Source of the DNA: Halorubrum trapanicum
GTDB lineage: Archaea; Halobacteriota; Halobacteria; Halobacteriales; Haloferacaceae
Assembly: GCF_002355655.1 (NCBI RefSeq)
Contig: NZ_AP017569.1
Span: forward strand, 2,046,001-2,110,000
Direction of reading: 5' to 3'
DNA length: 64,000 nucleotides
Below the pieces are notes generated by a model, which was not told the DNA's origin, searched no databases, and saw only the letters and a list, made by a program, of their open reading frames with translations. The translations under genes and the position numbers were made by a program. Of this stretch, positions 4,683 to 64,000 are shown piece by piece. Every line of letters starts with the position of its first letter. Position 1 is the first letter of the stretch.

Positions 4683-4935
4683 GCGGTGGCGCGTGCCTGC
4701 GAGGCCGCCCCGCGGCCGAGCAGCACGCGCGAGGGACGCGGCGACCGGAGCGAAGCGGAGGGAGCCGCGAGGCTGGGGAGGTGTGAGGTGCTGTGCGGTC
4801 GCGGTGCGGGGTGGGACTCAAAGGGGCAGCCGCGAGGACGAAGCACGACGACGCAAGCACCGCAAGGAGCGAGCGGAGCGAGCGACTGAGGAGCACAGCG
4901 AGTCGCGCAAGTCCTCGCGGCTGGGGCTTTGGAGG
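4683..4935 (+). repeat. Structured GC-rich dispersed element, copy A
   Basis: One of five related intergenic elements (A-E). The copy runs from GCGGTGGCGCGTGCC to GGCTGGGGCTTTGGAGG. Four stems can be drawn: P1 GCGCGTGC (4689-4696) with GCACGCGC (4723-4730); P2 GGCCGC (4703-4708) with GCGGCC (4712-4717); P3 CGCGGC (4737-4742) with GCCGCG (4764-4769); P4 CAGCCGCGAGGAC (4827-4839) with GTCCTCGCGGCTG (4911-4923). Unpaired blocks such as GAGGCTGGGGAGG and GGGACTCAAAGGGGCAG are shared with the other copies. Frames are not conserved between copies, so it is not coding. Unlike the other copies there is no clear TATA box directly before it. Belongs with copy E to one subfamily. Confidence 0.8.
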
Positions 4936-5225
4936 CGTTCACCGCCGATCCGCTACCAGTCATTTATAAGTAAGCGGCTGGGGCTTTGGAGGAGTTCACC
5001 GCCGATCCGCTACCAGTCATTTATAAGTAAGCGGCTGGGGCTTTGGAGGCGCTCACCGCCGATCCGCTACCAGTCATTTATAAGTAAGCGGCTGGGGCTT
5101 TGGAGGCGCTCACCGCCGATCCGCTACCAGTCATTTATAAGCGAGCGGCTGGGGCTTTGGGAGTGTTCGTCGTCGATCTACTGTCGGCTATTTATAAGCG
5201 AGCGGCTGGGGCTTTGGCGGTGTTC
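4921..5225 (+). repeat. 57-bp tandem repeat array attached to copy A
   Basis: Units start with CTGGGGCTTTGG at 4921, 4978, 5035, 5092, 5149 and 5206, an exact 57-bp spacing. The first four are nearly identical, the fifth is diverged and the sixth is cut short. Each full unit holds a small hairpin (GGCG-TTCAC-CGCC type) and a box ATTTATAAG near its end that resembles a haloarchaeal TATA box. The first unit overlaps the right arm of stem P4 of copy A. 57 is a multiple of three, but the sister arrays have spacings of 56, 57 and 66, which argues against a coding repeat. Confidence 0.9.
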
Positions 5226-15829: not shown

Positions 15830-16230
15830 TTTTTAAATAATCAGGGCGGTGGCGCGTGCCTGCGAGCGGCCGGAGCGAAGCGGAGGCCGCGAGTCGCACG
15901 CGCGAGGGAGTCGGGCGCTCCGAGGGCGACCGAAGGGAGCCCGAAGGACGCGCCCGACGAGGCTGGGGAGGTGTGAGGTGCTGTGCGGTGCGGTGGGGGA
16001 TGGGACTCGAAGGGGCAGCCGGGAGGCGAGCGCAGGCGACGCGAGCACCACAGCGAGTGAGCGGAGCGAACGAGCGAGGAGCGCGGCGAGCGTGCGCCCG
16101 CCTCCCGGCTGGGGCTTCGGTGGTGTGCGTGTCGGTCGGTAATTTATAGGAAGTATCGCCGCACAGCCGAGCGGTTGGGGCTCCGGGGGATGGTCACCGT
16201 CAATTTGCCGTCGCCTATTTATAAATGAAC
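15830..16230 (+). repeat. Structured GC-rich dispersed element, copy B, with two downstream units
   Basis: Starts with an AT-rich box (CTTTTTAAATAATC) 16 nt before GCGGTGGCGCG at 15846. Stems: P1 15852-15859 with 15896-15903; P2 GCGGCC (15866-15871) with GGCCGC (15885-15890); P3 GTCGGGCG (15910-15917) with CGCCCGAC (15951-15958); P4 CAGCCGGGAGGCG (16016-16028) with CGCCTCCCGGCTG (16099-16111). Two repeat units follow (starts 16109 and 16175, 66-bp spacing), each ending in a TATA-like box (AATTTATAGG; CTATTTATAAATGAAC at 16215-16230). It uses CTTCGG and GGACTCGAAGG where A and E have CTTTGG and GGACTCAAAGG. Groups with copy D. Confidence 0.8.
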
Positions 16231-22965: not shown

Positions 22966-23143
22966 GTATTTATAAATAGAACCGCGGTGGCGCGCGAGCG
23001 ACCGAGTGAGGACCACAGCGAGTGTGCGCCCGCCTCGCGACTGGGGCTTTGAAAACAATCGCCCTACCAAGAGCGATTTATAAACGACTGAGTGGGGAAC
23101 TCGGGGATTCTCTGTCCGGCTTCGCGAGTCGCTATTTATATAT
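22966..23143 (+). repeat. Truncated dispersed element, copy C
   Basis: GTATTTATAAATAG (22966-22979), then GCGGTGGCGCG (22984) joined directly to the 3' region CACAGCGAGTGTGCGCCCG and CCTCGCGACTGGGGCTTTG. About 170 bp of the core, including most of stems P1-P3 and the left arm of P4, is missing. Two degenerate downstream units follow, with boxes GATTTATAAAC (23074 onward) and CTATTTATATATG (23132 onward). It fills the gap between the convergent genes pibD and dnaG. Confidence 0.7.
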
Positions 23144-46750: not shown

Positions 46751-47056
46751 TTATAAACTGCTAAGCCACGCGGACCGCTCCGAAGCCCCAGCCGCGAGGC
46801 GGGCGCACGCTCGGGGCGGTCCTCGCTCGTTCGCTCCGCTCACTCGCTGCGGTCCTGCCTTCGCCTGCGCCCGCCTCGCGACTGCCCCTTCGAGTCCCGC
46901 CCGACAGCACCGCACAGCGCCTCGCGCCTCCCCAGCCTCGTCGGTGGTCCTCCGCGTTGCTCCGGACCACCGACTCCCTCGCGCGTGCTCCTCGCGGTCG
47001 CCGAGGGCGACCGCTCGCAGGCACGCGCCACCGCAGTGCCGCTGTTCATTTATAAG
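46751..47056 (-). repeat. Structured GC-rich dispersed element, copy D
   Basis: Minus strand: CTTATAAATGAAC box (47045-47056) then GCGGTGGCGCG from 47034 downward. Stems (forward coordinates): P1 47021-47028 with 46981-46988; P2 9-bp 47006-47014 with 46994-47002; P3 GTCGGTGGTCC (46940-46950) with GGACCACCGAC (46964-46974); P4 19-bp 46866-46884 with 46789-46807 (one G-U pair). Its first downstream unit is split by the 1.2-kb insertion at 46750/46751. Subfamily with copy B (CTTCGG, CTCGAAGG). It is divergent from the SufU-like gene. Confidence 0.82.
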
Positions 47057-47109
47057 TAGCTGCGATCGACGGAACCCTTTTGAGCCGGACCGGCGTACTC
47101 GGAGGCAGT

Positions 47110-47535
47110 ATGGGACTGGGCTCGGACATGTACCGGCAGCAGATCCTCGACCACTACAAGAACCCGCGTAACTACGGGGAACTCGAGGATCCGGACTTCA
47201 CGCACGTCGGCGAGAACCCCTCCTGTGGCGACACGATCCGGATGGACGTCCAACTCGACGACGCCGAGGAGACGGTCGAGGCAGTGCGGTTCACCGGCGA
47301 CGGCTGCGCCATCTCGATGGCCTCCGCGAGCATGCTCTCCGAGCGGCTCCACGGGATGCCCGTCGACGAGCTCGACGCGCTCGACACCGACGACGTCACG
47401 GAGATGCTCGGCGTCGACATCTCGCCGATGCGCGTCAAGTGCGCGGTGCTGGGCCGACAGGTCGCGCAGGACGGCGCGAAGATCCACCGCGGCGAGCTCG
47501 ACCCGGACGCGGACCGCACGGTCACCGAGGAGTAG
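47110..47535 (+). CDS. sufU: SufU/IscU-like iron-sulfur scaffold
   Basis: 141 aa. Assembles [2Fe-2S]/[4Fe-4S] clusters or relays sulfur from a cysteine desulfurase. The three conserved Cys are C39 (ENPSCGDTIRM), C66 (GDGCAISMASASML) and C111 (RVKCAVLG), with D41 next to the first. LYQQILDHYKNPRNYGELED-type N-terminus is intact (MYRQQILDHYKNPRNYG). A promoter lies between it and copy D. No other suf genes are in the window. Confidence 0.92.
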   Translation: MGLGSDMYRQQILDHYKNPRNYGELEDPDFTHVGENPSCGDTIRMDVQLDDAEETVEAVRFTGDGCAISMASASMLSERLHGMPVDELDALDTDDVTEMLGVDISPMRVKCAVLGRQVAQDGAKIHRGELDPDADRTVTEE

Positions 47536-47626: not shown

Positions 47627-48364
47627 ATGAGCGACGGCTTCGACAAGGAGGCGGAACGCGAGAAGCTCCGCGAGAAGTTCGCGGAGGACGAGAAGAAGCG
47701 CGAGCACACCCAGCAGATGTCCGAACTGCTCCTGAAGGGCGCGACGATGACGAACCGCCACTGCGGGGAGTGCGGCGACCCCATCTTCCGGTACGACGGC
47801 CGCGAGTTCTGCCCCACCTGCGGGAACGAGGCCGGGGGCGCGGCCGAGGCGGGGGAGGCTCCGGCTGAGGCGGGCGACGCTCCGGCCGAGGCGGACGGGG
47901 CTTCGGTCGAGGCGGGCGACGCTCCGGCCGACGCGGGTGACGCTCCCGCCGTCGCGACCGGAACGTCGACTGAAGCGGACGCCGAGGAGGGCGTCGACGC
48001 CGCGGCGGAGAACGGCGCGGTCGACTCCGGCGCGAACGAACCGGGCCGGTCGGAGTCGCCCCCGTCGACCGCGGCCCCGCAGGGCTCGACACCGTCGCAG
48101 GAGTCGGCGCCCTCGCAGGACTCGGCGTCGCCACGGAGGTCGTCGCCGCAGCGGTCCGAGCCGCAGCGGTCCGAGCCGCAGCAGTCGGTCCCGTCGCGGT
48201 CGGCCGACGACGCCGAGGGCGTCGGGGCCGCTCGCGCGTCGCTGACGCGGACGCTGACGCGGTTCGCGCGCGCCGCCGAGGAGACGGACGATCCGCGGCG
48301 CGCCCGCGACCACCTCGAAGCGGCCCGCGAGGCGGCCGAGGCGCTCGCGGCGCTGAATCGGTAG
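47627..48364 (+). CDS. Zinc-ribbon protein (Sjogren's/scleroderma autoantigen 1-like)
   Basis: 245 aa. N-terminal helices with MSELLLKGATMTNRHCGECG (residues ~24-43) and a single CxxC...CxxC zinc ribbon (CGEC / CPTCG, residues ~40-63), as in archaeal autoantigen p27-like proteins. The middle (65-175) is a low-complexity repeat of EAGDAPAEADG-like units followed by Ser/Pro/Gln. The C-terminal ~60 residues are a helical domain. Probable nucleic-acid binding; actual role unknown. Confidence 0.85.
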   Translation: MSDGFDKEAEREKLREKFAEDEKKREHTQQMSELLLKGATMTNRHCGECGDPIFRYDGREFCPTCGNEAGGAAEAGEAPAEAGDAPAEADGASVEAGDAPADAGDAPAVATGTSTEADAEEGVDAAAENGAVDSGANEPGRSESPPSTAAPQGSTPSQESAPSQDSASPRRSSPQRSEPQRSEPQQSVPSRSADDAEGVGAARASLTRTLTRFARAAEETDDPRRARDHLEAAREAAEALAALNR

Positions 48365-48939: not shown

Positions 48940-49310
48940 AATCCCAGCCAATCGCTTATAAATAATCCACAACGGATTGGCGGCGAACACCGCCAAAGTC
49001 CCAGCCAATCTCTTATAAATAGTTGACTGCGATCGGCGACGACCACCTCCAAAGCCCCAGCCGCGAGGACGGCGCACACTCGTTGCGCTCCTCGGTCGCT
49101 CACTCCGTTCGCTCCCTGCGGTGCTTACGTCGTCTGCGCCGTCCTCGTGGCTGCCCCTTTGAGTCCCGCCCCTCACAGCACAGCAGCCTCACGCCTCCCC
49201 AGCCTCGCCGCTCACTCCCTCCGGTCGCTCGCGGCGTCCCTCGCGCGTGCTGCTCGGCCGCAGAGCGGCCTCGCAGGCACGCGCCACCGCACACGTTCAT
49301 TTATAAATAG
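48940..49310 (-). repeat. Structured GC-rich dispersed element, copy E, with two downstream units
   Basis: Minus strand: CTATTTATAAATGAAC (49310-49295) then GCGGTGGCGCG from 49290. Stems (forward): P1 49277-49284 with 49243-49250; P2 GGCCGC (49256-49261) with GCGGCC (49265-49270); P3 CGCCGC (49206-49211) with GCGGCG (49231-49236); P4 19-bp left 49058-49076 with a matching arm near 49123-49151. Repeat units follow at 56- and 57-bp spacing, with TTATAAATA boxes. Subfamily with copy A (CTTTGG, CTCAAAGG). It begins 8 nt after the stop of the phosphohexomutase gene. Confidence 0.82.
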
Positions 49311-62853: not shown

Positions 62854-64000
62854 GCGGGCGCGACGGCGCTCCGGATGACGGCGATCGCTCCGACGCCTCT
62901 GTCGACGGCGAGCGACCCGACGACGGTACCGAGGTCGACGACGGCGAGGGCGTCGGCGACTGGGACGAGACGGTCGCGGCGTGGGACCGCGAGGTCGACG
63001 AGTGGGAGGAGGCCCCGGACGGCGGCACCGAAGGGCGGGTCGACGGCGACGGGCCGGACGCCGACGGAACCGGCGACGGGCCGGACGAGGTCGACCCCGC
63101 GGTCGACCGCGACCCCGACCTGACCCCGGGCGACGCCGACCGCGTGCCGAAGGTCGTCTCGGCGGGCCACATCAACTGGGACGTGACGATCCACGTCGAC
63201 AGCCTGCCCGAGCCGGACGGGGAGACGCGGATCGACCGGCTCGAACAGTCCGGCGGGGGCAGCGCCGCGAACGTCGCGGTCGGGCTCGTCGATCTGGGCG
63301 GCCAGTCGGTCGTCTACGGCAGCGTCGGCGGCGACGAGTCCGGCGCGCTGGCGCTGCGCGAGCTCGCCAGCGCCGGCGTCGACCCCGGGCAGGTGCTGGT
63401 CGACGCCGACGAGCCCACCTCGGTGAAGTACGTCATCGTCGACGGCGGCGGCGAGCTGCTCATGCTCGCGAACGACGGCGCCAACGAGTCGTTCTCCGCG
63501 GCCGGGCTCGACCGCGACACGCTCGCGGCCGCCGACCACCTCCACCTCACGGGACAGCAGCCCGAGACCGCGGCGGCGCTCGCGACCGCGGCCGCGGAGG
63601 CGGGCGCGACGCGGAGCTTCGACCCCGGCCGCCGCGTCGCGGACCGCGATTTCGAGGCCGCGCTCCACGCGAGCGACGTGCTATTTTTAAATGACCGCGA
63701 GGCCGACGCGCTCGAAGCGGCGACCGACGTCGACCCGTGGGAGCCGGACGACCGCGTCGTCGCGATCAAGCTCGGCGACGAGGGCGCCACGGTGCGGACG
63801 CCGCACGGGAGCGTCTCGCACCCGGGGTTCGACGTCGACCCCGTCGACACGACCGGCGCGGGCGACGCCTTCGCGGCCGGGTTCCTCGCGGCCGCGCTCC
63901 GGGAGTCGGAGATCACCGGCGACGGGTTCTCGCACGACCCGCGCGACTACCAGGTGCCGATCCTGGTCGGCAACGCCTGCGGCGCGGTCGCGACCGAGTC
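62850..64000 (+). CDS. PfkB-family sugar kinase, probable ribose-1-phosphate kinase (cut by window edge)
   Basis: At least 383 aa without stop at the window end. Residues 1-100 are an acidic Asp/Gly/Glu-rich extension; the kinase begins near 101 (KVVSAGHINWDVTIHVDSLP). GGGSAANVAVGL near 134-145 and the catalytic signature DTTGAGDAFAAGFLAA near 332-347 (base D339) identify PfkB. In the proposed pathway it phosphorylates ribose 1-phosphate to ribose 1,5-bisphosphate. Substrate cannot be proven from sequence. ATG overlaps the isomerase stop (ATGA). Confidence 0.85.
   Translation, partial: MSGRDGAPDDGDRSDASVDGERPDDGTEVDDGEGVGDWDETVAAWDREVDEWEEAPDGGTEGRVDGDGPDADGTGDGPDEVDPAVDRDPDLTPGDADRVPKVVSAGHINWDVTIHVDSLPEPDGETRIDRLEQSGGGSAANVAVGLVDLGGQSVVYGSVGGDESGALALRELASAGVDPGQVLVDADEPTSVKYVIVDGGGELLMLANDGANESFSAAGLDRDTLAAADHLHLTGQQPETAAALATAAAEAGATRSFDPGRRVADRDFEAALHASDVLFLNDREADALEAATDVDPWEPDDRVVAIKLGDEGATVRTPHGSVSHPGFDVDPVDTTGAGDAFAAGFLAAALRESEITGDGFSHDPRDYQVPILVGNACGAVATE

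Follow-up and report, generated by a model that had tools for sequence, protein, structure and literature searches.

A TATA-like box at the edge of a folded intergenic repeat in Halorubrum: core promoter or putative protein-binding module?

An AT-rich box precedes the first conserved stem of a structured intergenic element in Halorubrum trapanicum. Is this box the promoter of a structured RNA, or does it belong to the element for another reason? We addressed this question for a 64,000-nucleotide stretch of contig NZ_AP017569.1 (positions 2,046,001 to 2,110,000), hereafter termed the window, in which a preliminary description had noted five copies of the element, A to E. There, the box was read as a haloarchaeal core promoter placed at a fixed distance before the structured part.

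The element and its copies

The segment 49244-49310 comprises the first stem and the box of copy E, which lies on the minus strand. The box, TTTATAAATGAAC (49295-49307, minus strand), has the palindromic core TTTATAAA, is located 17 nt before GCGGTGGCGCG and is constrained in sister species. GCGGTGGCGCG itself (49280-49290, minus strand) forms the 5′ arm of the first stem, the 3′ arm of which ends with GCGAGGGA (49237-49244, minus strand). The remainder of copy E, likewise on the minus strand, consists of a second stem module (49207-49236), which is hypervariable and exchanged whole between species, the conserved motif GAGGCTGGGGAGG (49194-49206; class-wide variant GGCTGGGGAGG), a 3′ hairpin domain extending from GGGACTCAAAGGGGCAG to CTGGGGCTTTGG (49049-49167), and a tail (48956-49018) in which TTATAA at 49018-49013 and at 48961-48956 each ends a 57-nt unit.

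Copy D (46751-47055, minus strand), which has an orthologous copy in the closest available relative (G051), carries the box TTATAAATGAAC with TTATAA at 47055-47050, 21 nt before the start of the core at 47034; its last box is found at 46756-46751. The other three copies are located on the plus strand. Copy C (22969-23141) is internally deleted, its orthologue in G051 being full-length; the box TTTATAAATAGAACC (22969-22976) lies 15 nt before the core start at 22984, and downstream boxes are present at 23078 and 23136. In copy B (15830-16224) the box TTTTTAAATAATC (15830-15842) is placed 16 nt before the core, which begins at 15846, and is followed by downstream boxes at 16144 and 16219. Copy A (4683-5197), the orthologous site of which in G051 has the opposite orientation, is devoid of a 5′ box and contains five TTATAA sequences in its tail units (4964, 5021, 5078, 5135 and 5192). 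In line with the preliminary description, copies B, C, D and E bear the box upstream of GCGGTGGCGCG, at 15-21 nt rather than the 16-21 nt given there, copy A lacks it, and downstream repeat units bear it as well, in copies A and E and in weaker forms in copies B, C and D.

The element occurs across the haloarchaea as a dispersed, intergenic, non-coding and strongly folded repeat. An nhmmer profile identified 27 copies in 400 kb of the window's genome (G000) and 28 in the collinear 400 kb of G051, which together constitute the sample used for most comparisons. Extrapolation from 400 kb, with even density assumed, yields about 190-200 copies on the 2.84-Mb chromosome, and a first search revealed the element in 22 of 22 genomes of the genus. 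Plasmid copies are few and unannotated, and a search of the phage collection with the element core returned no match; a viral origin was rejected on these grounds. According to genes predicted by a simple codon model, with a coverage of about 74-75% of the sequence, every mapped copy lies between genes, and convergent gaps are over-represented (10 of 27 element sites vs 28 of 223 intergenic gaps). The copies occur in both orientations relative to genes, which excludes a terminator or an element confined to 3′-UTRs.

The RNA fold of the element has a z score of -5.2, and the stems pair equally well in boxed (0.73) and box-less copies (0.72), as compared to 0.49 after shuffling. Hairpins are present and a convincing ORF is absent, as in the PATE repeats, defined by palindromes near the termini and no transposase gene; an autonomous partner with a gene between the two halves was not seen in 800 kb. 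Rfam 15 returned no match in the window and elsewhere one chance hit (E 0.31) below the gathering score; a known ncRNA or tRNA was rejected for want of a match.

Both GACTGAAAGGGGC and ACGTAAGCACCGCA are also found in genera other than Halorubrum, among them Natrinema, Haloparvum, Haloglomus, Haloarcula, Halonotius and Halobacterium. There, the arms pair at 11.4 of 12 positions with their own partners and at 7.2 with shuffled partners. All 43 Halorubrum copies have a C-G pair adjoining the AAAG/CTTT helix. In the 77 copies from outside the genus this pair is always G-C; of its two bases only the 3′ C is independent, the copies having been found by a pattern that fixes the 5′ G.

Distribution, constraint and turnover of the box

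In the two 400-kb samples, TTTATAAA with at most one mismatch is present within the last 30 nt before GCGGTGGCGCG in 42 of 54-55 copies, and within the next 30 nt further upstream in 4 of 54. By chance, 0.4 boxed copies are expected, and the maximum in 200 Markov simulations was 3 (vs 42 of 54); a chance origin is thereby ruled out. Genus-wide, TTATAA (at most one mismatch) is found 7-26 nt upstream in 82 of 117 copies, the box starting 12-15 nt upstream in 64 copies and 18-21 nt upstream in 15. The distance is therefore restricted, as had been noticed, but two-peaked and not strictly fixed. Moreover, 158 (80%) of the 198 TTATAA sequences in the 800 kb are located at elements and 3 in genes. 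The box edges the element against the locus-specific flank on both sides and sits at the joints of the tail units.

Two variations of this arrangement were observed. In about 25 of the 82 boxed copies the box is preceded, at a distance of approximately 33 nt, by a second one, TATTTAAAT, and the two often enclose GAGCGACGGCGACG (for example at positions 175405 and 38678 of the G051 fragment, and at L022, L038 and L046). At L064, L070 and L076, which are copies downstream of the phosphomannomutase gene, and at position 85834 of the G000 fragment, tail joints have TACGTA or ACGTAC in place of TTATAA.

Other species of the genus differ in the presence of the box. It is absent from all copies inspected in G019 (0/5) and G053 (0/3), and present in a minority in G016 (3/7), G008 (2/6) and G064. 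At the phosphomannomutase site of copy E, the TATA string is gone and the core kept in G042, G045, G016, G044 and G050. Outside the genus, none of 60 copies has a TATA-like hexamer within 260 nt upstream, and the core is again kept. Species that lack the element at the phosphomannomutase or sufU locus have a different sequence in place of the box, and at the inspected loci the box was found only where the element is present. The box is thus a lineage-specific add-on, and since the core persists without it in other species, it is dispensable for the core over longer times.

We also compared orthologous sites in G000 and G051. An element is held at 24 of the 27 G000 sites in G051 as well. At two of these 24 the orientation is opposite, namely at copy A of the window (4683-5197) and on G000 C1 at about 2126123 (fragment position 176123), and one of the two lacks the 5′ box in G000. 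Three non-shared intervals were inspected and all had been replaced, so that no clean empty site was found between the two genomes. Given the shared sites and the lack of a clean empty one, recent transposition was not seen; both edges carry the palindromic box, which could pass as the terminal inverted repeat or the target duplication of a MITE.

The short motifs of orthologous copies have a median identity of 96%. The second stem has a median of 61.5%, falls below 70% in 12 of 18 cases and is often replaced wholesale by a stem that pairs well, several such replacements recurring at other loci. The number of tail units likewise differs between orthologues. Hence, stems change between the sister species as whole palindromic cassettes, probably by gene conversion, and box-less copies exchange cassettes just as boxed ones do.

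In 16 orthologous pairs, selected as boxed in both copies, which confines the substitution test to such pairs, the hexamer of the box is identical at 95 of 96 positions (99%), whereas its flanks reach 66-77% in the adjacent stretches without gaps and a gapped median of 80% over the 60 nt upstream. Because of this difference, the alignments argue that the box is constrained against substitution in the window's lineage. Four further orthologous pairs have no box in either species, and, judged by eye, no pair is clearly boxed in one species only.

Readings of the box

We consider the box to be a putative lineage-specific edge module of the folded repeat, probably a binding site for a TBP-type protein, and we assign this reading a probability of about 45%. 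In the Halorubrum branch of the window, the palindrome TTTATAAA would have been acquired by the core, once at the 5′ edge and again in every 57-nt tail unit, and the constraint would reflect protein binding at the edges of the element. TBP is the favoured candidate because the sequence is almost an ideal archaeal TATA box. Since the same hexamer is also found 30-31 nt before the start codons of a few ordinary genes (fragment positions A157851, A176587 and A55447), it can plausibly serve as a TATA box. As a palindrome, it could allow initiation in both directions, with starts either shortly inside the element or in the flank outside. Several points count against this reading. No BRE or -10 signature accompanies the box, selection that keeps a binding site at some 150 loci is a strong demand, and the hexamer could also be preserved by continuing conversion between copies, though the spacers around it stay locus-specific; at the phosphomannomutase locus the box has decayed in several species that keep the core. 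A bolder version, which we regard as a long shot, is that a haloarchaea-wide structured repeat that swaps its stems among loci as intact palindromic cassettes has, in one Halorubrum branch, spread a uniform palindrome binding TBP or another factor to well over 100 intergenic sites, forming chromosome-wide sites of bidirectional initiation or of architectural function under selection.

The position of the box where element and flank meet, on either side, and again at the joints of tail units, would also be expected of an end or joint signal of a mobile repeat, cut, inverted or duplicated by a recombinase acting in trans, for instance of the IS200/IS605 type. The two inverted sites, which resemble the 'SwitchRepeats' of Haloquadratum, and the varying number of tail units fit such a signal, and Y1 transposases are encoded in 41 of 52 genomes of the genus, with one each in G000 and G051. 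However, the sharing of 24 of 27 sites between sister species without a clean empty site, the lack of a 5′ box at one of the inverted sites and the presence of elements in G016 and G019, which have no Y1 transposase, speak against it, and a pure insertion signal leaves the constraint after insertion unexplained. This explanation is unlikely, though it deserves serious attention. The presence of a Y1 transposase does not follow that of the element or of the box.

The second alternative is architectural: the element would be a BIME-like repeat, the box of which binds a nucleoid protein or another chromosome protein, unrelated to transcription. This is consistent with the roughly 190 dispersed intergenic copies obtained by extrapolation, their two orientations and excess in convergent gaps, and with the confinement of most TTATAA sequences to elements that have few plasmid and no phage copies. 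On the other hand, there is no candidate protein, and other Halorubrum branches lack the box although their elements are similar; we therefore hold this possibility to be quite improbable.

We consider it slightly more doubtful still that the box is a directional haloarchaeal core promoter, driving a structured ncRNA from the first conserved stem, as originally proposed. The TATA-like sequence, its constraint and its restricted upstream distance agree with this proposal, as do the strong RNA fold and the covariation of stems by cassette. A precedent is provided by the TATA-bearing repeats of the Halorubrum virus HF2, which are proven promoters, tolerate BRE changes and are partly active in reverse (PMC8707807). 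The other features expected from the haloarchaeal consensus motifs, as quoted in PMC4983044, were not found. A BRE (CGAAA, at most one mismatch, within the 10 nt upstream) accompanies 4 of 42 boxes against a background of 8%, and columns 16-21 after the start of the box, where a -10 WW would be placed, are G/C-rich. The missing BRE is weak evidence against a promoter, because HF2 IR4 was insensitive to changes of its BRE. Moreover, the box is palindromic and consequently sets no direction.

The position of the predicted start is at variance with the proposal as well. In haloarchaeal core promoters the TATA box (TTWT) is placed about 24-31 nt before the start site. With the TATA centre taken as -27, the first transcribed nucleotide would be +10 to +19 of the element, which falls in the 5′ arm GCGGTGGCGCGTGCC of the first stem or slightly beyond it; with the TATA box beginning at -26, as measured in HF2, the start would move back by a few nucleotides but remain in GCGGTGGCGCGTGCC. 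Such a transcript would lack part or all of the 5′ arm and could therefore not form the first stem, and its 5′ domain is predicted to refold differently. A start near the first conserved stem, in the sense of one that yields the whole structure, is thus not borne out. Furthermore, the core is kept in box-less copies, species and genera, and no Rfam family corresponds to it. The suggestion that copy A may be silent fares no better: box-less copies pair as well as boxed ones and exchange cassettes equally, so that a copy without the box need not be dead. By sequence, the box appears to be almost an ideal archaeal TATA box but not a dedicated promoter of the complete structured RNA.

Finally, it is highly improbable that the box serves as an outward promoter, provided by insertion of the element to the gene beyond its 5′ edge: in about half of the copies the upstream neighbour is directed away from the element, mostly at a distance of 53-230 nt, and box D is located 55-60 nt before the start codon of sufU, but sufU has a promoter of its own whether or not the element is present, and most of the remaining copies lie 10-50 nt behind a stop codon, where outward transcription would be antisense. 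The sufU promoter, CGACGGAACCCTTTTGA (window 47064-47110, plus strand), is conserved in nearly all of the 30 Halorubrum species compared, so that box D is not needed to explain sufU and was rejected as its promoter. Separately, a 21-nt in-frame tandem repeat was observed at 47840-47960 (plus strand) of the window, in a gene for a small zinc-ribbon-like protein.

Relation to known repeats

Dispersed palindromic intergenic repeats that lie near stop codons, as the element does, and carry protein-binding boxes, as it probably does, are represented by BIME/REP of enterobacteria, which have much shorter units and occur in Bacteria; a sequence relation would not be expected. The Correia elements of Neisseria are likewise non-autonomous repeats with promoter-like boxes at their ends, but they have true terminal inverted repeats with a TA target duplication, which were not clearly seen for this element.

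Among archaeal repeats, the element resembles the PATE and SMR repeats of Haloquadratum walsbyi (PMC3119063); as no clean empty site was found, we claim no membership. Like PATEs, it is non-coding, heterogeneous and present in high copy number, has prominent palindromes and no transposase gene, and hosts nested small repeats; PMC3119063 also lists repeats at the same position in opposite orientation. PATEs are defined further by termini related to IS605-type transposons and by insertion into contiguous empty sites that leaves no target duplication. In contrast to PATEs, the element provided no clean species-specific insertion, and neither haloarchaea-wide motifs between hypervariable stems nor TATA-like boxes are reported for PATEs in the parts of that paper considered here. 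SMRs are also short and non-coding, without a known transposase, but they comprise about 80-110 bp with mostly >95% identity, whereas this element spans approximately 250-600 bp with 75-85% identity between copies. The class I intergenic repeats of HF2 (58 bp, PMC8707807) share with it a repeat-borne AT-rich box, a Halorubrum host and a length near that of the 57-nt tail units. They differ in that their promoter activity is proven and that they have a conserved TSS motif as well as a native direction, and the phage collection holds no match to the element core. A search of open-licence papers for the sequence strings of the element or for Halorubrum repeats returned nothing specific, PMC3119063 and PMC8707807 being the nearest, and the element is unreported as far as the searched literature and Rfam go.

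These results indicate that conserved TATA-like boxes between haloarchaeal genes can be part of a repeat and not of a gene. Since 80% of the sampled TTATAA sequences are repeat-borne, promoter calls in Halorubrum that are based on this box may be inflated. Moreover, the element provides a clear case of a structured nucleic acid that changes its stems by replacement of whole cassettes while the loci remain fixed. This is relevant to gene conversion in polyploid archaea and to the function of such repeats.

Small hairpin units (CCGGCGGC..GCCGCCGGCTG, GAGAATCTTCGATTCTCGCTGG and variants) were also observed inside copies of the element, namely at L069, L071, L072, L073, L074, L009 and L027, at position 298500 of the G000 fragment and at position 63084 of the G051 fragment. 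They resemble a second, nested mobile repeat, and look like SMR-A inside PATE palindromes (PMC3119063).
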